Shown piece by piece: positions 3,256 through 26,972 of a stretch of 29,423 nucleotides of DNA (position 1 is its first letter; each line of letters starts with the position of its first letter). The stretch is taken from the NCBI GenBank assembly GCA_947259685.1, contig CAMYNC010000033.1:23297-52719 (forward strand), given 5' to 3'. The translations under genes and the position numbers were made by a program. A model generated the notes under the pieces. That model was given only the letters and a program-made list of their open reading frames with translations, ran no database searches and was not told the origin of the DNA. This DNA comes from an uncultured Desulfuromonadales bacterium (lineage in GTDB: Bacteria > Desulfobacterota > Desulfuromonadia > Desulfuromonadales > Geopsychrobacteraceae).

Positions 3256-3341
3256 TCTAAAGTAAGAAACTGCTTGCTTGTCAGCCCAGCGTCCCTCGGT
3301 TAAACTCTGGGTCATTCAACACCCACATCATGGAGGGCATT

Positions 3342-4469
3342 ATGGCGGCGGAAGTCTGGTTTGCCGATTTACGTTCGGGCAATCGTGAAAACCTGTTCGA
3401 CAAACTTGAGCGGTTGCTCGATTCTGCCGGGCTGGCCAGAGTTGTCAACTCCGGGGAGTTGACCGCCATCAAGCTGCATTTCGGTGAAAAAGGCGGCCAT
3501 GCCTACATCCGCCCGGTATTTATCCGCAAAATTGTCGAGCAGGTCAAAGCCCTGGGCGGCAAACCTTTCCTCACCGACTCCAACACCCTTTACCCCGGCG
3601 AACGCAAAGAAGCGGTCTCAGCGCTCTCCTGTGGCATCGAAAACGGTTTCGCCTATGCGGTGGTCGGCGCACCATTGATCATGGCCGATGGGCTGCGGGG
3701 CAGCTCTTCACGCCGGGTGCAGGTTGAGGGTGTACTGCTCAGTTCCGCCGATATCGGTCTGGAAATACTCGAAGCAGATGTACTGCTGACTGTCAGTCAC
3801 TTCAAGTGTCATGAACTGACCGGTTTCGGCGGGGCGATCAAAAACCTGGCGATGGGTTGTTCCAGCCGGGCCGGCAAACTGGAGCAGCACTCCACGGTGG
3901 CCCCGCAGGTCGCCGAGAGTTTCTGCAACCTCTGCCATGACTGTCTGAAAGCCTGCGCCCATGATGCAATCAGCTTCATGGAAAGCTCGGCAAAAATCGA
4001 TCCGGATAAGTGTACCGGTTGCAGCCGCTGCATCACCATCTGTGAACAAAAAGCGATTCAGATTCAGTGGAATGAGGAAGCCGGCAAGGTGATGCGCAAA
4101 ATGGCCGAATACGCACAGGGCGCGCTGACCGGCAAAACAGGCAAACAGCTCTACGTCAACTTTATCACCCAAGTCAGCCCCTCCTGCGATTGCTACGGCC
4201 ACTCAGACGCGGCAATCGTGCCCGACATCGGCATCCTGATCAGTCAGGACCCGGTCGCCATCGATCAGGCCTGCGCCGACCTGGTCAACCAGGCCCAAGG
4301 GTTGCCCGATACCGCTCTGGCCAGTGGCCATGAGTCGGGCGGGGACAAGTTTCGCGGCGTGCATCCACAGATTGATTGGGAAACGACCCTGGAGCATGGC
4401 GAAAAGATCGGCTTGGGGGAGCGGAAATACACCTTGAAGCGGTTGGAGCCGAAGGGACAGAGCTGGTAA
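3342..4469 (+). CDS. DUF362 domain protein with two [4Fe-4S] clusters
   Basis: The product is 375 residues and cytoplasmic (no signal peptide). It has the DUF362 layout: a TAIKLHFGEKGG segment near residue 45, TDSNTLYPGER near 82, and SHFKCHELTGFGGAIKNLAMGC near 150. A ferredoxin-like insert at about 195-240 carries two CX2CX2CX3C motifs (CNLCHDCLKAC and CTGCSRCITIC), each expected to bind one [4Fe-4S] cluster. The C-terminal part DIGILISQDPVAIDQA is typical of the family. I prefer the ATG at 3342 because GGAGG lies just before it; an in-frame ATG at 3330 lies upstream of that Shine-Dalgarno sequence. The reaction catalysed by these proteins is not established; electron transfer or a redox-linked role is likely. 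The gene is convergent with resB. Confidence 0.85.
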   Translation: MAAEVWFADLRSGNRENLFDKLERLLDSAGLARVVNSGELTAIKLHFGEKGGHAYIRPVFIRKIVEQVKALGGKPFLTDSNTLYPGERKEAVSALSCGIENGFAYAVVGAPLIMADGLRGSSSRRVQVEGVLLSSADIGLEILEADVLLTVSHFKCHELTGFGGAIKNLAMGCSSRAGKLEQHSTVAPQVAESFCNLCHDCLKACAHDAISFMESSAKIDPDKCTGCSRCITICEQKAIQIQWNEEAGKVMRKMAEYAQGALTGKTGKQLYVNFITQVSPSCDCYGHSDAAIVPDIGILISQDPVAIDQACADLVNQAQGLPDTALASGHESGGDKFRGVHPQIDWETTLEHGEKIGLGERKYTLKRLEPKGQSW

Positions 4470-4571: not shown

Positions 4572-5771
4572 TCATTCTTCTGCCAGCTGTCTTTTCAATT
4601 CCCGCCATTGCCGCTCACCCAGCTCACCCCGCCAGCCCTTAAGCGGGACCAGGCACAGCTGCGCCCCTCCCAGCTTGATGCCGAGCGCCCGGTGGCGCAG
4701 TAAAAAAACCATCCCGAAGCCGATCATCAATAACCCGCAAGCTGCCCAGACCAGCACCTCGCCTGGATCTTTCGAGAGCTGAAAACCGACACTCCAGCGG
4801 CCCTGCTCGTCGCGGTTGTGGGCGATCTGGTAAAAACTGACCCCCCGATAGGTCAGCGGTTCATTCACGCGGATCAATCCCTGCTGCATCAAATTCCCGT
4901 TTTCCAGCACTGAGACCGCCGTTTCGGTCTGCTTGAGCAGCGGATCGCGAAACTCGACATTGAGCATGCGAAAGCCGGGATTGGGTTGCAATCCGAACTG
5001 TTCGAACTGCTCCCCGATCAGGTACTGGCCAAGCAGATTCCCAGCATGATAGACATCCATCGTCAACCGCCGCGCGTTCGGATCAAAACCACCCAGCTGT
5101 ACGCGAAAATCGGTCCCCGGCACGCTGAATGCTTCGTTATCGTAATGCATCAACTGGCCGATGCGACGACCGCTCGCAGCATCGGTCAGCTCAAAGCGTA
5201 GTTGAATCGGATAATAGCGCGGCTGAAAACGATCGACGCGAAAGCTGAAACCCAAATCAAGCTCCCGCTGAGCATTCCAGTCGAAATAGCGCTGATTCGG
5301 TTGCTGCAAGTAAGTATTCAGGGTGCCGACAAACCCGGTTTCCCCCCAAATCGCCCCGAGCATGACCAGTAGCACCGCCAGATGGACCAGCACCACTCCC
5401 CAACGCCCGCAACTCTGCTTTTCCGCCAACAGCAGCTGATCCTGCTCATAGAGTCTGAAACCGGCAGCCTGCAGACGGGATTTAAGCTGAGAGAATTCGA
5501 CAGGGAGCAACAGGGTATCGTCAAGCGCCTGTTGGGAGTCCAGATCGGCAAACAAGCGAGTTCGCGACTGCCATTTCTGCGGCAGATTTTTCAAGGTGCA
5601 GCAGAGCAGATTGAGGGCCAGCAAGCCGAGTAAGGCGCGGAACCAGATGCTCTGGTAGAAAATTTCGTAATGCCCCGGCTGGGCCGGCTTGAAGGTCCCA
5701 CCGATGGCCAGAACTGCCAGCAGCAGCAGCAGACCGAGGCTGAGCTGTAAAGAGCTGAAAAATCGCAGCAT
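4572..5771 (-). CDS. resB: ResB/Ccs1-family cytochrome c maturation protein (System II)
   Basis: The product is 399 residues. Hydrophobic segments lie near residues 5-26, 42-62, 123-143 and 340-362, with a large periplasmic domain between the third and fourth; this is the ResB/Ccs1 topology. Recognisable blocks are SLQLSLGLLLLLAVLAIGGT, the YQSIWFRALLGLLALNLLCCTLKN segment and VHLAVLLVMLGAIWG. In System II, ResB works with ResC/CcsA to deliver heme to CXXCH motifs outside the membrane. No ResC/CcsA gene is visible in this window. The ATG overlaps the ancestral stop of the upstream gene (TGATG), which implies translational coupling. Its position downstream of a roughly 99-heme cytochrome cassette suggests it serves that cytochrome, but this is inference. 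Confidence 0.85.
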   Translation of the reverse strand: MLRFFSSLQLSLGLLLLLAVLAIGGTFKPAQPGHYEIFYQSIWFRALLGLLALNLLCCTLKNLPQKWQSRTRLFADLDSQQALDDTLLLPVEFSQLKSRLQAAGFRLYEQDQLLLAEKQSCGRWGVVLVHLAVLLVMLGAIWGETGFVGTLNTYLQQPNQRYFDWNAQRELDLGFSFRVDRFQPRYYPIQLRFELTDAASGRRIGQLMHYDNEAFSVPGTDFRVQLGGFDPNARRLTMDVYHAGNLLGQYLIGEQFEQFGLQPNPGFRMLNVEFRDPLLKQTETAVSVLENGNLMQQGLIRVNEPLTYRGVSFYQIAHNRDEQGRWSVGFQLSKDPGEVLVWAACGLLMIGFGMVFLLRHRALGIKLGGAQLCLVPLKGWRGELGERQWRELKRQLAEE

Positions 5772-6592
5772 CAGCGCTCGTCGATACGGGGCCGACCGGT
5801 GGCCGGAGCATTTCTCATCTGCATGATTTCCGGAATTTCGCGCACCTGGATCTTCAACCCTGCAACCACCTGCCCCGGTTAGATCTGCAGTGGCGACGGC
5901 GCATTACCACCTAACACGCCGACGTGATCACCCGGGTCGGGACGCCCGCCGCGATAGGTTTTGCGGGCCCGCAAATAAATAGTCCCGGGCGTTGCCAGGG
6001 GCAATTGGAAACGACCATCGCTGCCACTGCGGGCCGATACCGCCAAGGGTGAAGTGGTCACCTCCGGATCGGCAAAAGCGAACACCAGCAGTCCGGCCAC
6101 CGGCTTCCCCTGCAGATCTACCAACTGGCCGCTGACCCCCATTTCAATCTGCTCATTCATGCCGGTAAACTCCCAGCCGGCAGCATGTTGACCGCCATCA
6201 GTCAGCTGATTGGCTGCCAAACTGACTCGTACCGCCTTGCCTTCCAGGTCGGGTGTCATAAAAACCAGATCCCCCGGTCGCGGCGGGCCCATCACTGGTC
6301 CGGGAGTCTTGCGCAGAATGGCACCGATGAAATATTCACCTGCTGGTGCCGCCAGCTCGAACACCCCGTCAGTCTTCAGGGGCGAGACAGAGACCGGGAT
6401 CACGGTGTATTTACGTGGATCGGGGATCTGTTCATCATCCGCCCGCCAGAGAACGGCAATGCCCTTGCAGGGCGCCTCGCCCTGACAATCGATCCGCCCT
6501 TGGACCCGGCCCAGCGGCACATCTTTGGCAATACTCTGAAAAGGAGAGAAAAGCAGCAACAGGAAGAGACTGATGAGAATGCGCATGGTCAT
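5771..6592 (-). pseudogene. Carboxypeptidase regulatory-like secreted protein interrupted by an in-frame TAA
   Basis: From the ATG at 6592 (GGAAAG just upstream) the frame encodes a signal peptide (MTMRILISLF...FQSIAK) and then two carboxypeptidase-regulatory-like beta repeats: VQGRIDCQGEAPCKGIAVLW...GEYFIGAI and GQLVDLQGKPVAGLLVFAF...TIYLRAR. It stops at a TAA at 5879-5881. The same frame continues without a shift for another 35 codons (PGQVVAGLKIQVREIPE...RIDER) to a TGA at 5771-5773 that overlaps the resB ATG. The segment SPLQI-stop-PGQVVAGLKIQV aligns with SSIRLEDGQKLTDIRIQV at the end of the paralogue at 20870-21916, where the stop position is Glu. A single G-to-T change (GAA to TAA) explains it. 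It may be a real nonsense mutation, a readthrough site or a base-call error. A longer frame from a TTG at 6637 overlaps the upstream terminator and is less likely. Confidence 0.75.
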
Positions 6593-6635
6593 GACTTTCC
6601 GATCGGTAAATGGTTTCTCTTTTCGCATTGTAGAC

Positions 6636-6676
6636 AAAAAAAAAGCTGAGGCAAAGTATTCTTAGCCCCAGCTCAG
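6636..6676 (-). terminator. Rho-independent terminator after the cassette A small cytochrome
   Basis: Read on the minus strand, AGCTGGGGC and GCCTCAGCT form a stem (one internal mismatch) followed by nine T residues. It lies 30 bases after the small cytochrome stop. It ends the giant cytochrome / peptide / small cytochrome transcript before the downstream regulatory-domain gene and resB. Confidence 0.8.
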
Positions 6677-6706: not shown

Positions 6707-7036
6707 CTAGTTGTGACAGAAGGTGCAAGCCTTCTTTTTTGCCACCTTCATTTTCGCGTGGCAGTTGCGACAGCTCTTGTGCATCGCCCGTTTCATGCTC
6801 GGCGCTTTCGGGTGCACACCGTGACAATCGCGACAGGTTCCGGTACCGACACCCATGTGATGGCAGCTCTTGCAATCAGGGACTCTCTGTTCATGTGCGC
6901 CATGAGAAAATTCCACAGCCGATTTTTGCGGCGAATCGAAACGGATGTGATCCGGCCCCTTGCGTTTAGCAACCACCGGTGAGGCCAGCGCAGCCACCAC
7001 CGCAATGGCTAAAGCAATCATTAGTAACTTTTTCAT
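6707..7036 (-). CDS. Small periplasmic tetraheme cytochrome c (c3/c7 family), cassette A
   Basis: The product is 109 residues with a signal peptide of about 23 residues (MKKLLMIALAIAVVAALASPVVA). The mature part has four CXXCH motifs (CKSCH, CRDCH, CRNCH, CTFCH). Extra histidines are placed as axial ligands in the class III pattern (FSHGAHEQ before heme 1, CKSCHH, AMHKSC). The expected role is soluble periplasmic electron transfer between inner-membrane donors and outer-membrane or extracellular cytochromes. GGAGGAG lies just before the ATG. It is the last gene of cassette A, after the 18-codon micro-ORF and a GC stem-loop. The paralogue at 15023-15421 has only three CXXCH motifs and a different tail. 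The family call is firm; the partner is inferred from position. Confidence 0.88.
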   Translation of the reverse strand: MKKLLMIALAIAVVAALASPVVAKRKGPDHIRFDSPQKSAVEFSHGAHEQRVPDCKSCHHMGVGTGTCRDCHGVHPKAPSMKRAMHKSCRNCHAKMKVAKKKACTFCHN

Positions 7037-7104
7037 CTTCTCCTCCTCTTGGGGTCCAGAGATATTCGGTTGTATAGGTAATTCGTTGCTTCTTCAGTAC
7101 AATG

Positions 7105-7126
7105 CGGGCCGGGGTAACCCGGCCCG
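7105..7126 (-). promoter_or_regulatory. GC stem-loop between micropeptide and small cytochrome, cassette A
   Basis: The 9-base arms CGGGCCGGG and CCCGGCCCG enclose a 4-base loop. It lies 11 bases after the micro-ORF stop and about 70 bases before the small cytochrome start. No T-run follows on the minus strand, so it is more likely an mRNA-stabilising or processing element, or an attenuator, than a full terminator. A matching stem occurs at 15499-15518. Confidence 0.55.
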
Positions 7127-7136
7127 TTGCTACGGC

Positions 7137-7193
7137 TTAGCAGGGATGAACGTTGCTGCTCCCCAGCACTTTCGGCTTCAGGTACTTCTTCAT
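7137..7193 (-). CDS. 18-residue micropeptide, copy A (GSSNVHPC family)
   Basis: The micro-ORF encodes MKKYLKPKVLGSSNVHPC and ends in TAA. AAAGGAG sits 7 bases before the ATG, a very good ribosome-binding site. It lies 65 bases after the giant cytochrome stop, between two GC stem-loops. Two other copies occur (15531-15587, 26973-27029), each after a large multiheme cytochrome. Against copy B there is one synonymous change (AAG/AAA) and one Leu-to-Val change. The peptide has a basic, Pro-containing head and an invariant GSSNVHPC tail with a C-terminal Cys. It has no signal peptide or hydrophobic helix. I do not know its function; a RiPP-like precursor or a cytochrome assembly or regulatory peptide are possibilities. 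Conservation at three loci makes chance very unlikely. Confidence 0.8.
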   Translation of the reverse strand: MKKYLKPKVLGSSNVHPC

Positions 7194-7224
7194 CGCAGTT
7201 CTCCTTTTATGCTCAGGTTGGTGA

Positions 7225-7244
7225 CCGCCGGGCAAACCCGGCGG
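7225..7244 (-). promoter_or_regulatory. GC stem-loop between giant cytochrome A and micropeptide
   Basis: The 8-base arms CCGCCGGG and CCCGGCGG enclose a 4-base loop. It lies 14 bases after the giant gene stop and 31 bases before the micro-ORF start. No T-run follows. Its counterpart is the perfect palindrome at 15615-15642. It may stabilise the 3' end of the long cytochrome message or tune expression of the downstream genes relative to it. Confidence 0.55.
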
Positions 7245-7258
7245 CATTCATTTGGAAT

Positions 7259-10200
7259 TTATTTACCGACCGCGATGGTGGCCCCATCTGGCACTTCGAC
7301 CGATGTTCCGCCCGGGATACTGCTACTGCTCGACTTGGTCAGGTAAAACCCATCGAAGCGCAGGCCATTCTCACGCGCCCAGACATTGATGGTATGTTCA
7401 CCGGTCGAGTTGATGCTGATCCGCATTGGTCGCGGTCCACTATTGTAGCGATCCCTGGCCCAACGGTAACCGCTGGAGGTCGAGAAGTTAGCGTTGCCGA
7501 CCTGACTTCCGTTCAGGCCATACCAGAGTGAGTTATCACCGCTGCTGCCATTGCTGTTGGCGCGGAACCAGATGTAGTAGGTACCAGTTTCGTTGAAGTC
7601 CAGCTTATAGCTCACCGAGGTTCCGCCGGGGTTGCTCATATTGTTTTCATCGGCTCGTAAATACTTCTCGCCGCTGGCCGAGGAGCTGTTCTGGACCGAG
7701 AAGTTACTCCCCAGGTCGCTGAAGTTTTCCGCTTCAACGTAGCTCCCATCTGGGTTCACATTGCTGGCCGCAGAGCCGCCGCCGGACTGGTTACAGAGGC
7801 TGCCGATGTAGGTGGCTTCTGCCAACTGGTAGGTCGCCTGATCGATGTAACTGCTCGTCAGATGCATCATCCAGTTCGGATTATCGCAGGAAACCTGAGC
7901 ACTGTTGTCATTATGGCAGTTGGTGCAGCTATTCAGATCACCGCTGGTGTAATCGGCTGGAGCCGAGAAGCCAGGCACCTGGTAGGCCTTACCGTTGTGC
8001 TCGATCGTGTACATGTTGAAGTTGACACTCGGGTTGCGCCAGTTACGGCCTCCCTCATCGCCACGATCCTCGCCGTTCGGACTGATATTTTCGCGGATCT
8101 CCTCGCGATTGCCGTTATTGGTCCACTGCGACCACCAGATGGCGAACTTGCCTTTGCCGCCGACCATCCGAGTGTAGCCGACCGGACCGCTCGGCTTGGC
8201 ATGGTAGGGATCCTGATTGTGACAGGCGGCACAGACGGCGAAGTTCTGGATCGGGCCGCCCTTGTTGTGCTGGTAAGCGCCATGACATTCACGGCAGGCG
8301 GCCTGCGCCGGGCGGTCCTGGGCCGAAGCCGGAACCACATGGCAGTGCGCACAATCGCCCACCTGAGCCCATTGGCTGTCGTGGTGGGGAGTGCTGGCAT
8401 GACAATTGGCACAGACATCCGGGCTATTCACCGACTGGTGGCAAGCGCCACAATCACCACCCAGATTGGTCAGCGGGCCAGCGTGGTGAACCTCGGGGAT
8501 GCTCTGCCCGCCACCAGAGTGGCAGGCCTCGCAGTTAGCCCCATTCAGCTGAATGCTGCTGTGGCAGGCGGCACAGTTCGATGCGCTATAAGCATCGGTA
8601 GCGTGATGGCCCGGATCGCTGTGGCAAGTGGCGCAGATAATCCCGGCAGCTTCCGCACCGGTGTGACAGTCGGCGCACAGGCCGATGCTGTAGGTCTGGG
8701 TGCTATGGTGGGTTGCTGAAGTCCCCGCCGGGGCTATGTTGCCATCATGGCAGCTACCGCAATCATCCTGGGCAACCTCAGCGCCACTGTGACAGACAGT
8801 ACACTGCCCGGTCTGACCGGCAATGGTCATTTCGTGGTGCTGAACCTGGATCGGCGGCATCCCCTCCTTACTGTGACAGAGGGTGCAATCCAGCTCAGCA
8901 GTATTGACCGCACTATGGCAATCGGTGCAGGCCGCCGTTTGTGCGAAACCGCTGTTATGGTGACGCTCGCCGATCTGTGGCGCATTCGGATCGACGTGGC
9001 AGCCGGCACAGTCGAGCAGGGCCGATTCGGCGCCGGCGTGACAACTAGTGCACAGCCCGTCGGTCGCCGGAGCGGTGGCATGGTGCATGGCGGAGCTGCC
9101 ATTTTTGACCGGCTGCGCTTCATGACAGCTGGCACAGTTCAGGTTCGCCGCAGCGACCGTCGCATGGCAACTGGTGCAGTTGCCCGCGGTCGCCGCGCTG
9201 CTGAGGTGGTGCATCGTGGCCCGACCATCCTTGCCTGGCTGGCCGGCATGGCAGCTGGCGCAGTCAAGCTCAGCTTGAGCAACGCTGTGGCAGGCGCTAC
9301 AGTTGCCTGCCTGACCGGCCGGCGAGATTTCATGATGCCGGCTGGCAATCGTCGGGGCATTGGCACCGCTGGTATGGCAGCTGTTGCAATCGTTGCCGGT
9401 CACCAGCTGAGCGAAGGTTTTCGCCGCATGGCAGGCGGCGCAGTTATCGGCCGCATAGTTGGCGCTGGCATGGTGCATCGCCGCGCTGCCAGTCTTCGCC
9501 TGGCCAGCATGGCAGGTCGCGCAGTCGAGATCGCCGACCTGGTCGATCCCTTGGTGACAGCTGACACAGTCGCCAGCGGCGTAGCCTGAGGCCTGGTGGT
9601 GGATCGCCGAACTGCCGACCCGGGCGACACTGCCGTCGTGACAGAGCTGGCAATTATCCACCGCGTCGCTGCCGCCGAGATGACAGGCAGTACAGTTGCC
9701 CGCCTGACCAGCCGCCGAGATTTCATGGTGCCGGGCGGCTACGGTTGGGGCGTTGGCGCCGGTGGTGTGGCAAGTCGCGCAGTCATTGCCGGCGACCAGC
9801 TGATTGAAGGTTTTCGCTGCGTGGCAGGCGGCGCAGTTATCCGCGGCATAATTCGCCGTGGCGTGGTGCATTGCGGTCCGACCATCTTTCGCCTGGCCGG
9901 CGTGGCAGCTGGCGCAGTCAAGGCTGGCGGCAGCAATACCGGTATGACAGGCGGTACAGTTGTCATTGAGCGCGTTGCCGGTGGCATGGTGCAGGGTCTT
10001 GATCGCCGGCTCACCATTCCCTTCATGGCAGGCGGCACAATTATCGACCACCTGCTCGGCACCCGTATGGCAGCTGGCGCAGGGGCCGGCCGCTGCGGCC
10101 TGGCTGGCATGGTGCATCGCCGGGCTGCCGTTTTTCTCCGGCTGATCGGCATGACAGGCCTCGCAGCCACTGACCACCACGTTCAGATGGCAGGCGGCGC

Positions 10201-13200
10201 AGTTATCGGCGGCATAGTTCTGGTTTGTGTGGTGCATCGCCGGGCTGCCGTCCAGTGGCGCACCGTTGCGCTGCTGTTGCGCGTGACAGCTGGCACAGTC
10301 GAGGCTAGCCTGGCTGATGCCGCTATGGCAGCTGGCACACTGGTCGGCTGTCGCCGGAGCGGTCGCATGGTGGGTCGCCGAGCTACCGGCTGGCGCGATG
10401 CCGCCGTCGTGGCAGAGTTCACAGTTGTTCACCGCATCGCTCCCGCCGACATGGCAGACCGTGCAATCGCCGGACTGACCGGCCGCCGAGATCTCATGGT
10501 GGCGGACGGCAACCGTTGGGGCGTTGGCGCCGGTGGTGTGGCAGGTGGCGCAATCATCATTGGCCACCAGCTGGGCAAAGGTCTTGCCCTCATGGCAGGC
10601 GGCGCAGTTATCAGCCGCGTAGTCCGGCGTTGCATGGTGCATCGCCGGGCTGCCATCCTTGGCGGTCTGGCCGTTCTGAGCAACAGTGCTGTGACAGGTC
10701 GCACAGTCGAGACCACCGGTCAGCTGATCGATTCCAGCGTGACAGCTGGCGCAGTTGTTGCCGGTGTAGCCCGCCGTCAGGTGGTGCGTCGCCGAAGTGC
10801 CGTTGCGGGCGACAGTGCCGTCGTGACAAGCTTCGCAGTTGTTGACCACCACCTCAGCACCACTGTGGCAGCTGGCACAGGGCCCGCTGGTGGCGGTCTG
10901 GCTGGCGTGGTGCATCGCCGGGCTGCCGTTTTTCACCGGCTGGTCGGCATGGCAGGCTTCGCAGCCGGTGCCGCCGATGGCGACATTGACATGACAGGCG
11001 GCACAGTTATCCGCGGCATAGTTGGCAGTCGCATGGTGCATCGCCGGGCTGCCATCCTTGCCTTTATCAGCGTGGCAGTTGGCGCAATCGAGAGCCAGCG
11101 GATCGATCGCTTCGATGCCGCTATGGCAATCGCCGCACTGATTGGCCGTCGCCGTGGCGGTCGCGTGGTGCATCGCCGGGCTGCCGTCCTTGCTCTTATC
11201 GGCGTGACAGCTGGCGCAATCGAGAGCCAGCGGATCGATCGCTTCGATCCCATTGTGGCAGGCCCCGCAGTTGTTATTGGCGTAGTTCGGCGTGGCATGG
11301 TGCAGTTGCGGCACCGAGGCGTTGTTCACCGTGCCGGTGTGACAGGTCTCGCATTGGCTCTCGGTCGGCTTGTTCACCCCGTAAACGCCGGTCACCGGAT
11401 CGGGCCCCAGGGTATGGCAGTCGAGACATCCTAAGCCATAGTTCTGGCTGGTCGAGGTGGCGTGATGGAGATTATCGGCCCCGGCCGGCCACCAGTCGCC
11501 ATGACAGCTGCTGCAGCCGGTGGTGGCTTGAATCGAAGCATGGCAGCTGTTGCAGGAGACGCTGTTATTGGTGGCAACATTGTGGTGCCGGTTTCTAGCC
11601 GTCAGATCCGCACCCCAGGACGCGCCGTCGTGGCAGGAGGCGCAGTCGGCCACCGGCTCAAGGCTGGCATGGCAGCTGGTGCAATCCAGGTTATTGTTGA
11701 CCCGCACCACATCATGGTGCTGTCCCGCCGCCGAACCGGCCGCCCAGCTGCTGCTGGTGTGGCAGCTGGCGCAGTCGGCCACTTGAGGCAGATCGGCATG
11801 ACAGGTCTGGCAGGCCAGGTTCTGGTTGCTGGTCAGCTGATCGTGATGGGCTTGGCGCGGCGCGTCACTGTGGCAACTTTCGCATTGGGCGGTTTCATCG
11901 CCACCGATGGCGCCATGGCAGGATGAACAGTCGAGGGAGCCGTCCAGGCGGATCTGCTCATGATGCTGAGCGACGGCGCTGCCTTCGGACCAGAAGCCGC
12001 TATCGTGGCAAGCCTGGCAGCTATCTTTGGGCTGCAGTGTCGCATGACAGACCGAGCAGTCGATATTCTGGTCAACCCGGATCTGATCGTGGTGCTGATC
12101 GATGGCTGAGCCGGTCGTCCAGCTGCCGGCGTCGTGGCACTGCTCGCAGCTGGTGATGTCAGCGCTGGCGCCATGACAGGTGCCGCAGTCCATACCGAAC
12201 TGGACCATCGCATGGTGCGGAGCCCGGGCGTCGCCGCTCTGGTGGCAGCCGTCGCAGTCGGCGACCGGTGCCATGCCGCCGTGACAGGCGTTACAGTCGG
12301 CGCTTAATGCCCCACGAATCTCCTCATGGTGCTGATTAAGGGCGCTTCCGGCACTCCAGAAATTTTCGTCATGACAGGAAAAGCAATCGCTCTTCGGATC
12401 GATGCTGGTGTGACAGCTGGCGCAGAGGCTCATGTCGCCGCCAGCCACCGCATGGTGGTCGCTGCGTGCGTCGGCACTCCAGCTGGCTGCGTCATGGCAG
12501 CTTTCACAGCTCGCCGCCACCGGCAGATCAACATGGCAGGTCTGGCAGAGCAGGTCCGGATTGCTGGTCAACTGATCGTGGTGGGCCTGGCGCGGCGCGG
12601 CGCTGTGGCAGCTCTCGCATTGGGCGCTTTCGTCCCCGGCGATGGTTCCATGGCAGCTGCTGCAGGACAGGTTATTATTCACCCGCACCAGATCATGGTG
12701 CTGGTTCAAGGCACTGCCAGCGCTCCAGAAGGCTTGATCGTGGCAGGAGAAGCAATCACTTTTCGGCTCGATCCCGGCGTGGCAATCAGCGCAGCGACTG
12801 AGGTCACCGCCAACCAGGGCGTGATGATCGCTGCGGGCATCGGCTGCCCAGGAGCCGGCATCGTGACACTGCTCGCAGCTGCTGATGTCGGCTTCGACAC
12901 CATGACAGGTGCCGCAGTCCATACCGAACTGCACCAGCGCATGGTGCTCCGGGCGGGCGTCGCCGCGCACGTGGCAGCCATCGCAGTCGGCCACCGGCGC
13001 CATGCCGCTATGGCAGGAGTTGCAATCGCCACCCTGCTGGCTGGCCACCAGATCATGATGCTGGTTCAGGGCGCTGCCGCTGCTCCAGAAGGCCTGGTTA
13101 TGGCAGTCCTGGCAGCCGTCGGTCGGCACCAGGCTGGCGTGACAGACCGAACAGTCGAGACTTTGATCGACCCGAACGCCGTTGTGGTGCTGATCGATCG

Positions 13201-14431
13201 CCGAACCTTGCGCCCAGCTGGTCGGGTTGTGGCAATCTTCGCAGCTATTAATGTCGGCGCCGGCGCCATGGCAGGTACCGCAGTCCATGCCGAACTGGAC
13301 CATCAGGTGGTGAGCCTCGCGGGCATCGCCACGCACATGGCAGCTATTACAGCTGTTATCAAAGACGATACCGGTATGACAACTGGAGCAATCGGCGGCA
13401 TTGGCGACCGCGATTTCATGGTGCCGATCCCTTGGAGTTGCCGGGTTGCCCTCGGCATCCAGTCCCCAGTAACCGGCATCGTGGCAGCTGGCACAACCAG
13501 GCACAGCACCGGCATCGGCGTGGCAGGTCGAACAGTTCAGGCTAGTGTCAGCGATAGCCATATCATGGTGCCTGGTGCGGTTTTCTTCGCCAGGGGCATG
13601 ACAGTCCTGGCAGCTGGTGAGGTCATCGATATTAAGCGCAATGGAGGTATGACAGACCGCGCAGTCGATGCTGACACTGGCAGCAATCTCATGATGGCGG
13701 TCCTTGGCTTCGCCTTGATGGCAGTCATGGCAATCGGCAGGTGCCGGCGCGTTAGTATGACAACTTTCACAGGCCGTACCGTTGAGTGCCGCGTTGGCAT
13801 GGTGGCCGCCGCGGGCATCGCCGTTAGTGCCCCAGAAGGCGCTATCGTGGCAACTTTCACAGCCAGTCACCGGTTGGATGTTGGCATGGCAGGACTGGCA
13901 GTCGAAATTATTAGTCTCAGCAACGGCGTGGTGCTGATTACGGATGCTGCCGGTGTGGCAGTCGAGGCAACCGGTCAGCGCATCCATAGTCGTGTGGCAG
14001 CTGTTACAGGCGATCGGGTCGATGATCTCTGGTGTGCGCGGATCATCGTCAATCGCCACATGGTGTGGGGCACGGATCATCCCCAGATGGCAGTTTAGGC
14101 AATCGGCAAGGTCACCGACATCGGTATGGCACTGGGCGCAGTTGCCGCCGGTGGCGGCAGCGGTCTCATGGTGGGCATTCTGCTGCGGCACGAAGTTGTG
14201 GCACTGAGAGCAATCACCACTGGTGATCACCCCCGCATGGCACTGATTGCAGAGTCCCTGGCTGTAGGCATCCGACTGGTGATGACCAGCTGCGACGTTG
14301 TCACCATGACATGAAGAGCATTCACCCGCAGCAAAACTCTTTACCGGCAACAACGCGAGACAAATCAGAATCGCGAGCAACAAAACGCTTTGCAGCATCT
14401 GTTTTCTCATATCTACAGCCGGGTATTCCAT
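7259..14431 (-). CDS. Giant secreted multiheme cytochrome c (about 99 CXXCH) with C-terminal jelly-roll domain
   Basis: The product is 2390 residues. AAGGAGG lies 9 bases before the ATG at 14431; the frame runs 24 codons further upstream, but only this start has a ribosome site next to a signal peptide (hydrophobic core MLQSVLLLAILICLALLP, cleavage near SFAA). By hand I count 99 CXXCH motifs from residue 38 on, about one per 24 residues, interspersed with HH pairs that probably give distal axial ligands. The array has two halves joined near residue 980 by a GDWWPAG segment: about 47 motifs before, 52 after. The first half repeats blocks such as FGMDCGTCHG...SCEQCHDAGSW; the second repeats DGSPAMHHAT...DNCAACH. 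A Gly/Ser linker leads to a jelly-roll-like domain (about 2229-2367) with YVEAENF, TGTYYIWFRA and EHTINVWARENGLRFDGFYLT, resembling CBM6/CBM35-type modules. The expected role is long-range extracellular electron transfer; anchoring to glycan is inference. Confidence 0.92.
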   Translation of the reverse strand: MEYPAVDMRKQMLQSVLLLAILICLALLPVKSFAAGECSSCHGDNVAAGHHQSDAYSQGLCNQCHAGVITSGDCSQCHNFVPQQNAHHETAAATGGNCAQCHTDVGDLADCLNCHLGMIRAPHHVAIDDDPRTPEIIDPIACNSCHTTMDALTGCLDCHTGSIRNQHHAVAETNNFDCQSCHANIQPVTGCESCHDSAFWGTNGDARGGHHANAALNGTACESCHTNAPAPADCHDCHQGEAKDRHHEIAASVSIDCAVCHTSIALNIDDLTSCQDCHAPGEENRTRHHDMAIADTSLNCSTCHADAGAVPGCASCHDAGYWGLDAEGNPATPRDRHHEIAVANAADCSSCHTGIVFDNSCNSCHVRGDAREAHHLMVQFGMDCGTCHGAGADINSCEDCHNPTSWAQGSAIDQHHNGVRVDQSLDCSVCHASLVPTDGCQDCHNQAFWSSGSALNQHHDLVASQQGGDCNSCHSGMAPVADCDGCHVRGDARPEHHALVQFGMDCGTCHGVEADISSCEQCHDAGSWAADARSDHHALVGGDLSRCADCHAGIEPKSDCFSCHDQAFWSAGSALNQHHDLVRVNNNLSCSSCHGTIAGDESAQCESCHSAAPRQAHHDQLTSNPDLLCQTCHVDLPVAASCESCHDAASWSADARSDHHAVAGGDMSLCASCHTSIDPKSDCFSCHDENFWSAGSALNQHHEEIRGALSADCNACHGGMAPVADCDGCHQSGDARAPHHAMVQFGMDCGTCHGASADITSCEQCHDAGSWTTGSAIDQHHDQIRVDQNIDCSVCHATLQPKDSCQACHDSGFWSEGSAVAQHHEQIRLDGSLDCSSCHGAIGGDETAQCESCHSDAPRQAHHDQLTSNQNLACQTCHADLPQVADCASCHTSSSWAAGSAAGQHHDVVRVNNNLDCTSCHASLEPVADCASCHDGASWGADLTARNRHHNVATNNSVSCNSCHASIQATTGCSSCHGDWWPAGADNLHHATSTSQNYGLGCLDCHTLGPDPVTGVYGVNKPTESQCETCHTGTVNNASVPQLHHATPNYANNNCGACHNGIEAIDPLALDCASCHADKSKDGSPAMHHATATATANQCGDCHSGIEAIDPLALDCANCHADKGKDGSPAMHHATANYAADNCAACHVNVAIGGTGCEACHADQPVKNGSPAMHHASQTATSGPCASCHSGAEVVVNNCEACHDGTVARNGTSATHHLTAGYTGNNCASCHAGIDQLTGGLDCATCHSTVAQNGQTAKDGSPAMHHATPDYAADNCAACHEGKTFAQLVANDDCATCHTTGANAPTVAVRHHEISAAGQSGDCTVCHVGGSDAVNNCELCHDGGIAPAGSSATHHATAPATADQCASCHSGISQASLDCASCHAQQQRNGAPLDGSPAMHHTNQNYAADNCAACHLNVVVSGCEACHADQPEKNGSPAMHHASQAAAAGPCASCHTGAEQVVDNCAACHEGNGEPAIKTLHHATGNALNDNCTACHTGIAAASLDCASCHAGQAKDGRTAMHHATANYAADNCAACHAAKTFNQLVAGNDCATCHTTGANAPTVAARHHEISAAGQAGNCTACHLGGSDAVDNCQLCHDGSVARVGSSAIHHQASGYAAGDCVSCHQGIDQVGDLDCATCHAGQAKTGSAAMHHASANYAADNCAACHAAKTFAQLVTGNDCNSCHTSGANAPTIASRHHEISPAGQAGNCSACHSVAQAELDCASCHAGQPGKDGRATMHHLSSAATAGNCTSCHATVAAANLNCASCHEAQPVKNGSSAMHHATAPATDGLCTSCHAGAESALLDCAGCHVDPNAPQIGERHHNSGFAQTAACTDCHSAVNTAELDCTLCHSKEGMPPIQVQHHEMTIAGQTGQCTVCHSGAEVAQDDCGSCHDGNIAPAGTSATHHSTQTYSIGLCADCHTGAEAAGIICATCHSDPGHHATDAYSASNCAACHSSIQLNGANCEACHSGGGQSIPEVHHAGPLTNLGGDCGACHQSVNSPDVCANCHASTPHHDSQWAQVGDCAHCHVVPASAQDRPAQAACRECHGAYQHNKGGPIQNFAVCAACHNQDPYHAKPSGPVGYTRMVGGKGKFAIWWSQWTNNGNREEIRENISPNGEDRGDEGGRNWRNPSVNFNMYTIEHNGKAYQVPGFSAPADYTSGDLNSCTNCHNDNSAQVSCDNPNWMMHLTSSYIDQATYQLAEATYIGSLCNQSGGGSAASNVNPDGSYVEAENFSDLGSNFSVQNSSSASGEKYLRADENNMSNPGGTSVSYKLDFNETGTYYIWFRANSNGSSGDNSLWYGLNGSQVGNANFSTSSGYRWARDRYNSGPRPMRISINSTGEHTINVWARENGLRFDGFYLTKSSSSSIPGGTSVEVPDGATIAVGK
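10100..11190. repeat. Near-identical DNA repeats inside giant cytochrome A
   Basis: The string GGTGCATCGCCGGGCTGCC recurs near 10112, 10231, 10638, 10913, 11037 and 11169. It encodes the GSPAMHH element of the second heme array. Flanking sequence such as TGGCAGGCGGCGCAGTTATC also recurs. The copies are nearly identical at synonymous positions, which points to recent tandem duplication or gene conversion inside the gene. Cassette B shows weaker copies near 18112 and 18216. These are coding repeats, not an intergenic array. Confidence 0.75.
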
Positions 14432-14553
14432 GCGAACCGCCTCCTTCGATGTTTGACTTGGCATTTGGCGAAAACCTGTTGGCAACAACTTGACTTCTTG
14501 CATTAATTAAAGTGATATCGGCCACTTGGCCACTTACACAGACGCATCTGAAG

Positions 14554-15022: not shown

Positions 15023-15421
15023 TTACCTACGATCGCGGCATACCCCTCTCCATCTGCTCCAGGAACAGTCAGAATCAGCGCGACAGCTGTCCTTATCGCT
15101 GTAGTCAGAGCAGCTGGCTACTGGAGCTGGAGCTGGAGTAGACGCATGGCATGTTTCACAGTTCTTGGCCAAGGCATCGGCCAGCGCAGGAGCAACAGCG
15201 GTTCTGCCATGACAGCCGTCACAGGAACCGTTACCGACGCCCATATGATGGCAGCTTTTACAGCCGTTGACATTCGCCTGGTGTAGCGCATGATCAAAAG
15301 TTACCGAGCCTTTTCCGGTGATATCCAAGTTGATGGTTGCCGGTGCCTTCAAAGCCACTGCCGGCAGGGCAAAGGCAGCAACCAGTCCCAGAATCAGCGC
15401 CAGGACAAGTAATTTCTTCAT
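15023..15421 (-). CDS. Small periplasmic triheme cytochrome c (c3/c7 family) with Cys-rich tail, cassette B
   Basis: The product is 132 residues with a signal peptide (MKKLLVLALILGLVAAFALPAVA). Three CXXCH motifs follow (CKSCH, CDGCH, CETCH), in register with the first three of the paralogue at 6707 (shared NGCKSCHHMGVGNGSCDGCHG-like block). After the third heme comes an Ala/Pro linker and a tail with four cysteines in a CX8CX5CX8C pattern around DKDSC and CSWSRW. That looks like a disulfide mini-domain, not a heme site. GAGGAGG lies just before the ATG. It is the last gene of cassette B. The expected role is periplasmic electron transfer; the tail may mediate binding. A remnant of the expected fourth-heme C-terminus appears downstream, so the present tail may be a replacement. 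Confidence 0.85.
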   Translation of the reverse strand: MKKLLVLALILGLVAAFALPAVALKAPATINLDITGKGSVTFDHALHQANVNGCKSCHHMGVGNGSCDGCHGRTAVAPALADALAKNCETCHASTPAPAPVASCSDYSDKDSCRADSDCSWSRWRGVCRDRR

Positions 15422-15498
15422 CGTTTCCTCCTCTGTAAAGCCAGAGTTTGTGTTTTTATGTCTGAGATCAGTAAAGATCGATTTTACTGGTGAAGAAA

Positions 15499-15518
15499 GG
15501 GCCGGGAAAACCCGGCCC
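15499..15518 (-). promoter_or_regulatory. GC stem-loop between micropeptide and small cytochrome, cassette B
   Basis: The 8-base arms GGGCCGGG and CCCGGCCC enclose a 4-base loop, followed on the minus strand by TTTCTTC. It lies 12 bases after the micro-ORF stop. The short pyrimidine run could give partial termination and so reduce expression of the small cytochrome. It corresponds to 7105-7126. Confidence 0.55.
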
Positions 15519-15530
15519 GCTCTGGTTGAC

Positions 15531-15587
15531 TTAGCAGGGATGAACGTTGCTGCTCCCTACCACTTTCGGCTTCAGGTACTTTTTCAT
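15531..15587 (-). CDS. 18-residue micropeptide, copy B (GSSNVHPC family)
   Basis: The micro-ORF encodes MKKYLKPKVVGSSNVHPC and ends in TAA. AAAGGAG sits 7 bases before the ATG. It lies 65 bases after the stop of giant cytochrome B, with a perfect GC palindrome between them, and about 110 bases before the small cytochrome. Position and spacing match copy A closely. The stretch from the ribosome site through the stop is nearly identical in the two copies. Confidence 0.8.
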   Translation of the reverse strand: MKKYLKPKVVGSSNVHPC

Positions 15588-15614
15588 CTCAGTTCTCCTT
15601 TTATGTTCAGGGTT

Positions 15615-15652: not shown

Positions 15653-18600
15653 TTATTTTCCAGTAGCGGTGGTTGCGTTGGTCGGGACACCGACCGTGCT
15701 GCCACCCGGGATGCTGCTGTTGTTCGACTTGGTCAGGTAGAAGCCATCATAGCGCAGGCCGTTTTCACGTGACCAGACGTTGATGCGGTGTTCACCGGTG
15801 GAGTTGATGGTGATCCGCATCGGGCTCGGACCACTGTTGTAGCGATCCTTGGTCCAACGGTAACCGCTGCTGGTCGAGAAGTCGGCGTCACCAAGCCGGT
15901 TGCCATTCAACCCGTACCACATCGAGTTATCGCCGCTGCTACCGTTACTGTTGCCGCGGAACCAGATGTAGTAGGTCCCGGTTTCGCTGAAGTCCAGCTT
16001 GTACTCAACCGAAGTCCCACCCTGACTGCTGGTGTTATTGACATCGGCCCGCAGGTACTTATCGCCGTTGGCAGAGGAGCTGTTCTGGACTGAGAAGTTA
16101 TTGCCCAGGCTGCTGTAGGCTTCTGCCTCAACGTAGGTGCCGCTGCTATTGACAGTGCTGGCACCACCGCTGCCAGAACCACCACTGCTGGTCCCACCGC
16201 CGGTATTACTGTAATCGGCTGGCGGCGAGAATCCCGGCACCTGGTAGGTCTTGCCATTGTTGCTGATGGTGTACATCTGGAAGCTGATTTTCGGGTTACG
16301 ATATTTGTAGCCACCCTCATCGTCCATGTCCTCACCATTCGGGCTGACGTTCTCACGGATCTCCTCATCACCACCGTTAGTCATCTGGTTCCAGAACAGG
16401 TTGAAGGAGCCCTTACCACCGACCATCCGATTATACCCCGGAGGTCCAGAGGGTTTCGGGTGGAAGGCCACGGTGTCGTGACAGGCGGCACAGGCGCCAT
16501 AGTTCTGGATCGGGCCACCCTTATCGTGCTGATAAGCGCCGTGACATTCGCGACAGGCGGCCTGGGCCGGACGATCCTGCGCCGAGGCAGGAACAGTGTG
16601 GCAGTGGGCGCAATCGCCAACCTGGGCGAACTGGCTATCGTGGTGCGGACTGCTGGTGTGGCAGTTGGAGCAAACATTCGGCGCGCTGACGGCATTATGG
16701 CAAACGCCGCAGTCACCACCCACCTGGCTCAACGGACCGCTGTGGTGGATTTCCGGAATCGTCTGGCCGCTGGCCCCAGTATGGCAGGACTCGCAGTTCG
16801 CGGCATTCAACTGAATGTCGGTGTGACAGAAACCGCAGTTATCACCCACATAAGCCGGTTGCTCATGGTGCGGCGGATCGACGTGACAGCTGGCACAAAC
16901 GATCCCTTCCGCCTGGGCACCCTCGTGACAGTCAGTACAGAGACCGATCTGCGCGGTATCAGTGGCATGGTGCATTTCCGGGCTGCCGTTTTTCACCGGC
17001 TGACTTTCGTGACAGATGGCGCAGTTGCCGCTATCGATACTGGTGCCGGCATGGCAGACGTTACAGTCGTTGATCATTCCCGCAGCAGTCATTTCGTGGT
17101 GCAGGACTTCAATCGTCGGGCTATCGCCCTTGGTGTGACAGGTGGCACAATCCAGCTCAGCAGTATCCACCACATGGCAGGCACCGCAGTCGGACGCCAG
17201 GATATTTCCGGAATCGCTGTGGTGACGCTCGGCGATCACCGTCGGCGCGTTCGGATCAACGTGACAGCCGGCACAATCCATCAATTCCGAAGCGGCACCG
17301 GCGTGGCAATGGGAACAATCATCGTTGGTAAAGAATGCAGTGCCGTGGTGCATCTCTTTGCTGCCGTTTTTCACCGGCTGAGACGCATGGCAGGACTCGC
17401 AGTTGAGGTTATTGACATTCACCGATGCGTGGCAATCGGTACAGTTACCAGCGGCGGCCGAGGCGGTCGCATGGTGCATCGGGGCTTTACCGTCCAGTTC
17501 CGGCTGACTGGCGTGACAGGTAGCGCAGTCAAGCTCTGCCTGATCGACTACGTGGCAGGCGCCGCAGTTCCCGCTGGTTGCCGGAGTGGTGCTGTGGTGA
17601 CGATCGGCCAGCAGGTCCGGGTTGCCACCGGTGTGGCAGGTGAAACATTCGTTGCTGGCGACCAGTTGATCAAAGGTCTTCGCGTTGTGACAAGCTGAGC
17701 AGTTCTCAGCTGCGAAGGCCGGGTTAGCATGGTGGGTCGCCGAATTACCTGGGCGGGCCGCGCCATTGTCCATGTGACAGCTCTCACAGCTGAGGCCGCC
17801 GGCGACTTGATCGATCCCTTCGTGGCAGCTGGCGCAATCGCTAGAAGCCTGGTGGTGGGTTGCCGAGGTACCAGCGCGGGCAACGCCGCCGTCGTGACAG
17901 AGTTCGCAGTTATTCAGCGCGGTATTGGCGCCGGTATGACAATCGCTGCAGCTGTTGGCAGCTTGGGCGAAGTCACTGGTGTGGTGCATCACCGGGCTAC
18001 CGTTCTTGACCGGCTGATCGGCGTGGCAAGCTTCGCAGCTGTCGCCGGAGAAGGTGACGTTCTGGTGGCAAGCCGCGCAGTTATCATTGGTGTAGTTCTG
18101 GTTAGCGTGGTGCATCGCCGGGCTGCCGTTCTTGTTCTGCGGAGCATGGCAGGTGGCACAGTCGAGGCTGGCCTGGGTAATGCCGCTGTGGCAGTCGTTA
18201 CAGACCGTCGAGGCGGCGTGGTGCATCGCCGGGCCGCCATCTTTCGACTGGTCGGCATGACAGGTAGCGCAGTCGAGAGCGCCGGCATTGATCCCGTCGA
18301 TCCCTTGATGGCAGGCGCCGCAGTCGTTGTCTGCATATTTCTGCGTTGCATGGTGAATCTGCGGTACGCTCGCCTGATTCACGGTGCCGGTATGGCAGGC
18401 CTCACAGGCCGCTTCGCTCGGCTTATTGACGCCATAGACCCCGGTGATCGGATCGGGACCCAACTCATGACAATCGAGGCAGCCGAAACCGAAGCCCTGG
18501 CTGGTCGAGGTTTCATGATGCAGGTTCGAGCTTCCTGCCGGCCACCAGTCGCCGTGACAGCTGTTACACCCGGTGGTTGCCTGGATCGAGGTGTGGCAGG

Positions 18601-20503: not shown

Positions 20504-20644
20504 AGATAATGCCTCCATAAGTTTTCGGTCCATTCTTAGCTTTTATTATTTAAACTTCTTTTTTATTCTTGCAGTTTTCAAAAAACTTAGTGTTTTTAAA
20601 GAGTTTCAAAGTCAAAACAGATCATTCACGGAACGGTCATAATC

Positions 20645-24218: not shown

Positions 24219-24361
24219 GGGCGAGATGTATCTCGCCCCTACAGCGTTTGACCCATCGACCCGTAGGGGCGCCATACATAGGTCATTGTAGGGGCGCCAT
24301 ACATGGCGCCCGCGAGCATGAAACGAATCAATAATTTGCAGGGGCGACCCGGTGGGTCGCC
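24219..24361. repeat. Cluster of four REP-type palindromes
   Basis: There are four units with the head GTAGGGGCG followed by a palindrome. They lie at 24219-24242 (minus orientation), 24263-24280 (plus, right arm lost), 24288-24311 (plus) and 24338-24361 (plus, head GCAGGGGCG). The first two are paired head to head with a 20-base spacer, as in the pairs at 26421-26490 and 26831-26901. They lie between two lipoprotein genes and match the units around the transposase gene at 26512. Confidence 0.8.
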
Positions 24362-24384
24362 TGTTTCCCAAAAAGGACCACCGA

Positions 24385-25740: not shown

Positions 25741-26416
25741 AATTGAATCCCTTGGCCCCTACCTGATCCTGCTGATTGCACTGATTCTGCTGGCGATCCC
25801 TCCCCACAGCGACTTGCAACTTTCCGAGGGAAAAGCAGCGAAGAGCACTGAAACGCCACCGAGCCCCCCTCTGCTGGAAACCTTTCAAGGCTCACCGCAG
25901 CTCTCCCTATTTCCCCGCCTGGGCGACTACCGTCCCGAAGATGGCGAAGAACGGCTGCTGTTCTGGCGTTCTTACCGCGATCACCTGCTGCGAATCTCCG
26001 GCGTGGTGAAAGAAAATACCGTCCTCGGCAATAAGGTTTTCAGCTTCCGCGGCATCAAAAGCATCGACTCGGTCGGCCACTTCGCCCCCCTGGCGGTCAA
26101 GCCGAGCACCAACTACCGGCTGCGTCTGAAGCTCAACGCCATGCTGCCCGAAAAAGCCAGCACCGGGGTCGGTATTCTGCAGTTCAATAAATTTCTCTGG
26201 CTCGGCGAGCAGTACCCGGAAAGTTTGCAGAAGGAGATCTTCGTCGGCAGCAACGAACTGCTGCGGGTTCGTAAAACCAACGGCTGGCAGGAATTCGACC
26301 TGCAATTCACCAGCGGCCCGGAAACCCAAATGGTTCACCTGGTGTTGTTCCGTGAAGGCCCGGCCAGTGATCGGGTTCCGGTGATGGTGGATAATATTTC
26401 GGTGGAGGGGAATTGA
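25733..26416 (+). CDS. Membrane-anchored beta-sandwich protein, function unknown (TTG start)
   Basis: The product is 227 residues. The TTG start at 25733 is supported by AAGGAG 7 bases upstream and by its overlap with the previous stop. One N-terminal transmembrane segment (YLILLIALILLAIPP) anchors it. The periplasmic part, about 55-225, has the strand pattern of carbohydrate-binding-like folds: NYRLRLKLNAMLPEKASTGVGILQF, NGWQEFDLQF and a final VPVMVDNISVEG. The last motif resembles the end of CBM4/9-type modules. I cannot name the family. It probably works with the lipoprotein encoded upstream. Confidence 0.7.
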   Translation: MNKIESLGPYLILLIALILLAIPPHSDLQLSEGKAAKSTETPPSPPLLETFQGSPQLSLFPRLGDYRPEDGEERLLFWRSYRDHLLRISGVVKENTVLGNKVFSFRGIKSIDSVGHFAPLAVKPSTNYRLRLKLNAMLPEKASTGVGILQFNKFLWLGEQYPESLQKEIFVGSNELLRVRKTNGWQEFDLQFTSGPETQMVHLVLFREGPASDRVPVMVDNISVEGN

Positions 26417-26901: not shown

Positions 26902-26929
26902 GCATCTCATCCGCCCTAACCTCAACCAA

Positions 26930-26967
26930 AACACCAAGGGCCGCTCGATTGAGCGGCCCTTGGTGTT
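26930..26967 (-). terminator. Strong stem-loop after micropeptide copy C
   Basis: Perfect 17-base arms (AACACCAAGGGCCGCTC and its complement) enclose a 4-base loop, with a total of four T residues at the end of the stem on the minus strand. It lies 5 bases after the micro-ORF stop. The micro-ORF is therefore the last gene of the third cytochrome transcript. Confidence 0.75.
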
Positions 26968-26972
26968 CCTGG

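Follow-up and report, generated by a model that had tools for sequence, protein, structure and literature searches.

Micropeptide genes behind the cytochromes of the window

The window, by which we mean the whole stretch of 29,423 nucleotides analyzed here, contains three multiheme cytochrome genes that are each followed by a very short gene on the same strand (Table 1). An initial annotation had placed three minus-strand ORFs of 18 codons at these sites, each with a Shine-Dalgarno sequence 7 bases before the ATG, and all three are found exactly there: 7 bases lie between AAAAGGAG and the ATG in every copy. The distance from the cytochrome stop to the start of the micro-ORF, given earlier as 24 to 65 bases, was measured as 65, 65 and 24 bases for copies 1, 2 and 3, respectively. 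Hairpins downstream of the three copies yield folding z values of -2.9 to -9.7. No promoter-like site is seen at positions 6800-7400, and Rfam gives no match within the window.

Table 1. Features of the window, with positions counted from its first nucleotide
Feature	Position	Strand	Basis
DUF362/ferredoxin protein	3330..4469	+	annotation
ResB-like cytochrome c biogenesis protein	4572..5771	-	annotation
Carboxypeptidase-regulatory-like domain protein, 30.8 bits (just below cut-off 32.3)	5879..6637	-	profile match
Small cytochrome c3/c7, downstream neighbor of copy 1	6707..7036	-	annotation
GC-rich hairpin, directly 3' of copy 1 stop	7097..7133	-	folding z
Putative precursor-peptide gene copy 1, 18 codons, MKKYLKPKVLGSSNVHPC	7137..7193	-	sequence reading; family of 196 members
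Shine-Dalgarno AAAAGGAG of copy 1	7201..7208	-	sequence reading
Hairpin in gap between cytochrome stop and copy 1	7224..7245	-	folding
Giant multiheme cytochrome, 2414 aa, 99 CxxCH, upstream partner of copy 1	7259..14503	-	motif count
Small cytochrome c3/c7, downstream neighbor of copy 2	15023..15421	-	annotation
Hairpin, directly 3' of copy 2 stop	15494..15523	-	folding
Putative precursor-peptide gene copy 2, 18 codons, MKKYLKPKVVGSSNVHPC	15531..15587	-	sequence reading
Shine-Dalgarno AAAAGGAG of copy 2	15595..15602	-	sequence reading
Giant multiheme cytochrome, 1626 aa, 62 CxxCH, upstream partner of copy 2	15653..20533	-	motif count
Two TPR/lipoprotein-like genes, convergent with copy 3	24352..26416	+	annotation
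Strong terminator-like hairpin, -39.4 kcal/mol, directly 3' of copy 3 stop	26926..26972	-	folding
Putative precursor-peptide gene copy 3, 18 codons, MKRYVKPKLVGSSNVHPC	26973..27029	-	sequence reading
Shine-Dalgarno AAAAGGAG of copy 3	27037..27044	-	sequence reading
CxxxxCH/CxxCH-type multiheme cytochrome (TIGR01904 domain), upstream partner of copy 3	27054..29423	-	domain match

The cytochrome ahead of copy 3 is a frame of 789 codons, incomplete at the edge of the window, with 8 CxxCH motifs in the visible part. It belongs to a similarity cluster (cluster 1) together with cytochromes that adjoin the peptide in a second order (the order of genome G185, 141 genomes, taken to be Geobacterales). 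Other neighbors recur as well. Carboxypeptidase-regulatory-like proteins are found near peptides elsewhere (cluster 4) and at the operon of the GeoRSP radical SAM system in L269, a locus of the second order; this operon also includes ResB-like and NosD-like proteins, the former as in the window. Judged by eye, a protein adjoining the peptide in L269 resembles the DUF362/ferredoxin protein of the window, and resemblers of the two TPR/lipoprotein-like proteins flank other peptide copies that lie away from GeoRSP genes (clusters 5 and 6). None of the annotated window proteins was recognized as belonging to GeoRSP or as any other radical SAM protein, in agreement with the initial annotation.

Two further observations concern the window itself. 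Long frames run opposite to the giant cytochromes (e.g. 9596-11434 on the plus strand, 612 codons), and these look like an effect of composition rather than genes. Also, a 21-base repeat, CGTCCCATCGGG[A/C]CGCCCCTA, is present 3' of copy 3 in three near-identical copies on the minus strand (26467-26487, 26780-26800 and 26878-26898) where 0 are expected by chance; probably it is a dispersed intergenic repeat.

A large family of conserved micropeptides

Ordinary gene callers would be expected to skip genes this short. The pattern x-G-S/T-S/T-N-V-H-P-C-stop, which leaves the leader free, was run on one genome per species (GTDB r220) and gave 79 matches in 76 stretches. A Y.KP leader precedes the tail in all 79, far beyond chance. 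This tail search and the tabulation of flanking genes had both been suggested by the initial annotation; cytochromes and radical SAM/SPASM proteins are indeed found next to the matches. By title the records are Desulfuromonadales, Desulfuromonadaceae, 'Deltaproteobacteria', Malonomonas, Geopsychrobacter, Geoalkalibacter and Desulfuromonas, with the exception of one Thermodesulfovibrionia record (GTTNVHPC) and one 'Phycisphaerae' bin. The peptide neighbors in the latter (L019, JAABXR010000011.1) match those of a Desulfuromonadales locus (L021), and its title is probably a binning error. We also considered that the peptide could be the C-terminal tail of longer proteins. This was rejected for the 79 matches, as the longer frames look like read-through upstream and the Shine-Dalgarno sequence belongs to the start of the 18-mer.

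The reverse search, with only the leader specified, was applied to the 277 genomes of the class. Besides the exact-tail matches it returned 34 matches (counted by hand), of which 25 are 18-codon ORFs preceded by a Shine-Dalgarno sequence and 9 are not. All 25 end in H-P-C, with cores that include GSGNVHPC, GSGSIHPC, ASSNVHPC and GSSDVHPC. In the second order the peptide takes forms of 17-20 residues, most commonly MKK[RQ]xYxKP[RK]VVGSA[DN]VHPC. One search for these forms gave 28 matches, 17 with a leader and 11 chance-like (reversed control: 9); another gave 38 matches (reversed control: 0), one of which, L237, lacks both a stop codon at that place and a peptide. The cores GSAVVHPC, GSAAVHPC and GAAVVHPC were added by a profile (A1) made from 25 members. 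This profile matches 31 of 395 sampled genomes from the phylum of genome G029 (taken as Nitrospirota), and each of the 29 Nitrospirota loci returned contains a peptide ending in HPC.

Taken together, 335 loci and the window hold 196 distinct ORFs of 17-20 residues with a Y..P-type leader, all ending in H-P-C: 116 have 18 residues, 57 have 20, 22 have 19 and one has 17. Members were defined by a Y/N..P leader and a Shine-Dalgarno sequence of at least 4 bases with the tail left free (201 ORFs without the Shine-Dalgarno filter). Since H-P-C patterns had served to select part of the loci, the pairing of leader and tail is more fairly judged from the 79/79 and 25/25 counts and from the profile matches. 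The micro-ORFs of the window thus belong to a large conserved micropeptide gene family, as had been proposed. The claim that the last eight residues are invariant does not hold across this family, in which H-P-C alone is invariant. A Shine-Dalgarno sequence of at least 4 bases precedes 169 of the 170 instances whose surroundings were tabulated.

Some loci (L071, L197 and L270) carry two peptide genes, among them a variant in L197 with the Y replaced (MKKNLKP...) and a GNAVVHPC core in L270. In two genomes from the phylum of G029 (G542 and G602) there are 12 and 9 weaker peptide matches per genome, which may reflect an expansion in which cores have diverged, for instance to GSACVHPC (L333).

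Selection on the encoded protein

The initial annotation had regarded a lack of homologues outside the window, or a disrupted frame, as evidence against a gene. Instead, the homologues that make up the family vary synonymously at every core codon. The serine seven residues from the end is encoded by TCN in 39 of 39 copies adjoining the putative maturase genes described below, against AGY in 78 of 78 other 18-mers (in the 53 forms of other length: TCN 30, AGY 18, non-serine 5). TCN and AGY cannot be interchanged by one silent change, which implies two old lineages that kept the same serine. Judged from these codons, the peptide gene is selected as a protein.

The same data bear on the idea that the conserved element is really DNA or RNA, such as a terminator or processing site, and that the reading frame is incidental. 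The strong hairpin 3' of the ORF would fit this idea. The hairpin lies outside the ORF, however, and neither the silent changes at every core position nor the TCN/AGY split would be expected from a conserved nucleotide element. With frame, start and Shine-Dalgarno sequence kept and no Rfam match in the window, we consider the chance of such an element next to negligible.

Copies outside the GeoRSP operon most often follow cytochromes

The 170 instances occur in several contexts: 39 adjoin GeoRSP genes, 72 have a multiheme cytochrome upstream, 14 lie behind FG-GAP proteins, 4 between HD-domain and Bax-inhibitor-like genes, 2 next to YedE and 4 at an edge, and 35 fall in other contexts that are unassigned, many of them with only 1.5 kb of flank. 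Thus, of the 131 instances away from the GeoRSP enzymes (referred to as satellites), 72 lie behind a multiheme cytochrome. When loci of 4 kb or more are considered, the ORF directly upstream of the satellite has at least 5 CxxCH motifs in 42 of 65 cases; among the remaining ORFs of these loci 17 of 400 have as many. The layout of cytochrome and then peptide is also seen in the second order (L266, L268-L270, L272-L276), and in 11 of the 29 Nitrospirota loci a related cytochrome lies upstream on the same strand. The pairing with cytochromes described for the window is thus a recurrent arrangement, but not a strict one: the peptide occurs away from cytochromes too. A recurrent exception is seen in L019, L021, L033 and L039, where it sits between the HD-domain and Bax-inhibitor-like genes with no cytochrome ahead.

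The median upstream gap of the cytochrome and FG-GAP satellites is 65 bases. Strong folding is seen in the 55 bases 3' of the stop for 71 cytochrome satellites (mean z -5.1, with 87% of them below -2); among the 39 operon copies 59% are below -2. No strong folding is found in the 5' gap of the satellites (mean z -0.85), so the hairpins upstream of window copies 1 and 2 are not a general feature of the family and were dropped as such. Given the cytochrome upstream, the hairpin downstream and the unfolded gap in between, a satellite peptide is most simply explained as the last cistron of the cytochrome transcript.

Association with the GeoRSP enzymes

The enzyme next to the peptide is GeoRSP_rSAM (TIGR04303, radical SAM/SPASM), which is accompanied by the GeoRSP PqqD (TIGR04302) and SPASM (TIGR04304) proteins. 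All 39 instances that adjoin GeoRSP_rSAM or its SPASM partner are 18-mers from Desulfuromonadales; no such adjacency is seen for the 53 peptides of other lengths (17, 19 or 20 residues) in the set of 170. Scores were compared for a Desulfuromonadales (L040), a second-order (L269) and a Nitrospirota locus (L199), in that order. TIGR04303 gives 445, 615 and 576 bits (cut-off 400) and TIGR04302 gives 100.3, 164.8 and 156.2 bits (cut-off 100). The SPASM partner reaches 94, 339 and 291 bits with TIGR04304 (cut-off 300), which is still the best model in L040. The CxxxCxxC motif is present in 81 and the SPASM motif in 75 of 82 rSAM sequences, a set picked by similarity that includes some more distant radical SAM proteins; CxxxCxxC is absent from all 73 SPASM partner sequences. 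In the Nitrospirota locus L330 the order is PqqD-rSAM-peptide, with no SPASM partner within 1.5 kb downstream (the SPASM match there lies inside the rSAM gene).

Nothing was found between the rSAM and SPASM genes in 18 GeoRSP operons, 12 from the second order and 6 from Desulfuromonadales, the latter chosen because the patterns gave no peptide there. Around the second-order operons a screen for 5-mers shared among short ORFs yielded pieces of the enzyme genes, on either strand. Another target for the second-order GeoRSP was considered and dropped, as the forms of 17-20 residues were found elsewhere in those genomes.

Peptide and enzyme also occur in the same genomes. With one profile each (enzyme E<=1e-60, peptide E<=1e-3), the enzyme is detected in 87 of the 277 genomes of the class (81 above the cut-off) and the peptide in 96. 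Both are present in 85, the enzyme only in 2, the peptide only in 11 and neither in 179. Hence the peptide is found in 85 of 87 genomes with the enzyme, against 11 of 190 without it (Fisher p 3.8e-56, a statistic that ignores shared ancestry). The GeoRSP_rSAM model gives no match at E<=1e-60 in 14 named control genomes. The two genomes with GeoRSP in which the profile finds no peptide are G185 and G229. The eleven peptide-bearing genomes without GeoRSP_rSAM at E<=1e-60 are G011, G016, G026, G033, G035, G152, G155, G159, G239, G242 and G249; on recheck G016 has an enzyme fragment at a contig end, and G011, G026, G033, G035, G159 and G242 have weaker radical SAM proteins only. The association has predictive value as well: the profile finds the peptide in 16 of 18 enzyme-positive genomes where the DNA patterns had failed and which contributed no row to it, against 0 of 8 enzyme-negative control genomes (best E 1.47).

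Adjacency, co-occurrence, successful prediction by the profile and the leader motif together make it very probable that this family supplies the precursors of the GeoRSP system. An unmodified micropeptide could be imagined instead, the C-terminal His-Pro-Cys of which binds heme or a metal and helps to load or fold the adjoining cytochrome, with an indirect link to GeoRSP. His and Cys are natural ligands of heme and metals, many satellites lie behind multiheme cytochromes, and the ResB-like and NosD-like proteins in the L269 operon would suit such a role. Yet this leaves the 39 of 170 copies at the GeoRSP enzymes and the tight co-occurrence without a reason, as well as a leader-type Y..P motif and a PqqD-type protein in the same operon. 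It also does not account for the copies behind FG-GAP proteins or those between HD-domain and Bax-inhibitor-like genes. We judge it very unlikely.

Some operon contents point elsewhere. The L040 operon encodes a putative selenium transporter of the YedE type (393 bits, cut-off 200) together with a member of the cysteine-desulfurase family (437 bits, cut-off 377). There are also two loci in which the peptide adjoins a TPR-YedE pair, L263 (genome G159) and L265 (genome G146); in L263 it sits behind a rhodanese-domain protein, and G159 has no GeoRSP_rSAM above the cut-off. It might be argued from the L040 operon and the G159 arrangement that the GeoRSP product acts in the handling of sulfur or selenium and not with cytochromes, its C-terminal Cys carrying S or Se. 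However, the satellites behind cytochromes would then be left unexplained, and genes of this kind may only supply Fe-S clusters or simply be neighbors. A role of this type is therefore improbable in our view, but not negligibly so.

Proposed mechanism

We propose, with a probability of roughly 0.85, that the micro-ORFs encode RiPP precursors modified by the GeoRSP system, i.e. by a PqqD-family leader binder, a radical SAM/SPASM enzyme and a SPASM-only partner. Residues 1-10 (MKKYxKPxVV) would act as the leader and residues 11-18 (GSSNVHPC and variants) as the core. The PqqD-type protein presumably grips the leader through Y..P.[VI], which fits a [Y/W]xxPx[L/V/I/F/A] motif that, according to the available text of PMC13381572, is bound by the PqqD-like RREs of lasso peptides and needed by an LPP leader. 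The radical SAM enzyme would then act on the invariant C-terminal His-Pro-Cys. Each genome would have a single maturase locus that serves several unlinked copies; in Desulfuromonadales this locus usually includes a peptide copy itself. Most of these copies would form the last gene of multiheme cytochrome operons, so that the peptide is made along with the cytochrome.

The invariant, free H-P-C end suggests that the chemistry takes place there. In this respect mycofactocin offers a precedent: MftC decarboxylates and cyclises the C-terminal Val-Tyr of the 31-residue MftA (available text of PMC7491314). By analogy, the reaction at the C-terminal Cys is perhaps an oxidative decarboxylation or a cross-linking. 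What the product does is more weakly indicated; it might help to assemble or tune extracellular cytochromes, or act as a redox cofactor. The most far-reaching version is put forward tentatively, as we hold it to be somewhat less probable than its opposite: cytochrome operons would bring their own 17-20-residue precursors, a single GeoRSP set would modify the His-Pro-Cys of all of them, and the result would be a new class of peptide-derived redox cofactor or cross-linking ligand that is part of, or needed for, extracellular multiheme-cytochrome conduits.

A secreted antimicrobial or signaling peptide made by GeoRSP would also be compatible with several copies per genome, and many RRE/rSAM RiPPs are antimicrobials. 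Bacteriocin cores, however, are usually variable, whereas the present core is almost constant across two phyla. The gene often lies in cytochrome operons, and no immunity gene or dedicated exporter was recognized among the annotated operon proteins (nor was a leader protease). A secreted product of this kind thus has only a slim chance of being correct.

The peptides are very probably a new substrate family for an orphan radical SAM system, and their link to multiheme cytochromes is striking. Although the GeoRSP enzymes have been named, we know of no annotated target for them, and no description of their substrate was found in the literature searched. The peptide is a candidate for this substrate and, with 17-20 residues, is easily synthesized or expressed. 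To our knowledge such peptides would be among the shortest precursors of rSAM RiPPs. For a cofactor-type system it is unusual to have one maturase and several precursors located in cytochrome operons. Should the product be linked to cytochromes, extracellular electron transfer in bacteria of the Geobacter type and in Nitrospirota would have a small-molecule component that had not been suspected.

Comparison with known systems

GeoRSP itself is among the closest known systems, as these very enzymes adjoin the peptide and both rSAM and PqqD score above their cut-offs in the three loci compared; the difference is that the models (TIGR04302, TIGR04303, TIGR04304) name enzymes only. Mycofactocin (MftA/MftB/MftC) shares a short precursor with a strongly conserved C-terminal core, a chaperone and an rSAM/SPASM enzyme. 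Mycofactocin was itself discovered through a short ORF that shares a cluster with a radical SAM gene and whose C-terminus is very conserved (available text of PMC3023750). Among named peptide maturases MftC comes nearest to the rSAM proteins of L040 (193.5 bits over the full length) and L269 (172.5 bits). With 159.6 bits in L199, all three scores are below the cut-off of the model (TIGR03962, 265), and the heme b synthase AhbD scores slightly higher (202.5 bits in L040, 177.5 in L269). The present peptides differ from mycofactocin in a core ending in His-Pro-Cys, a precursor of 17-20 residues and several unlinked copies, many in cytochrome operons.

PQQ biosynthesis (PqqA/PqqD/PqqE) differs in several respects. 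The PqqE model gives 122 bits against a cut-off of 381, the GeoRSP SPASM partner lacks CxxxCxxC throughout, and the peptide is without the Glu-Tyr pair that PqqA carries. Leaders of lasso peptides and LPPs have the YxxPx[L/V/I/F/A] motif and a PqqD-like RRE in common with the present system (available text of PMC13381572). Here, however, neither a lasso cyclase nor a leader protease is found among the 9 annotated proteins of the L040 operon, and the core has 8 residues. Geobacter and Pelobacter are named in the lasso-peptide section of a 2014 RiPP survey of anaerobes (available text of PMC4289311). The available text of a 2026 survey of Geobacter multiheme cytochromes mentions neither radical SAM, small proteins nor open reading frames (PMC12977616). 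Within the literature searched the strings SNVHPC, TIGR04280 and TIGR04303 are absent, and GeoRSP and NVHPC appear only in papers that are unrelated by title; 'geopeptide' leads, by titles, mostly to Bacillus lipopeptides and marine products.

The initial annotation had tentatively connected the peptide with the geopeptide maturase (TIGR04280), a radical SAM/SPASM enzyme named for a short peptide in related bacteria. The notion of a radical SAM substrate has become very probable, but the enzyme next to the peptide is GeoRSP_rSAM. TIGR04280 is a different enzyme family; of 37 genomes with the peptide, a single one (G029) has a match above the cut-off, and there the enzyme is on contig C216 and the two peptide matches are on C186. 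What speaks for it as the maturase is the resemblance in name, and we find this assignment hardly credible. Just upstream of the sole TIGR04280 enzyme above the cut-off lies a short ORF, MVKKEKKKIVVLDKGVKNAAGPMGMCCHGAFLYMRR (L077, 1330-1440, plus strand). It is one of many short ORFs there and perhaps, as a guess, the real geopeptide precursor.
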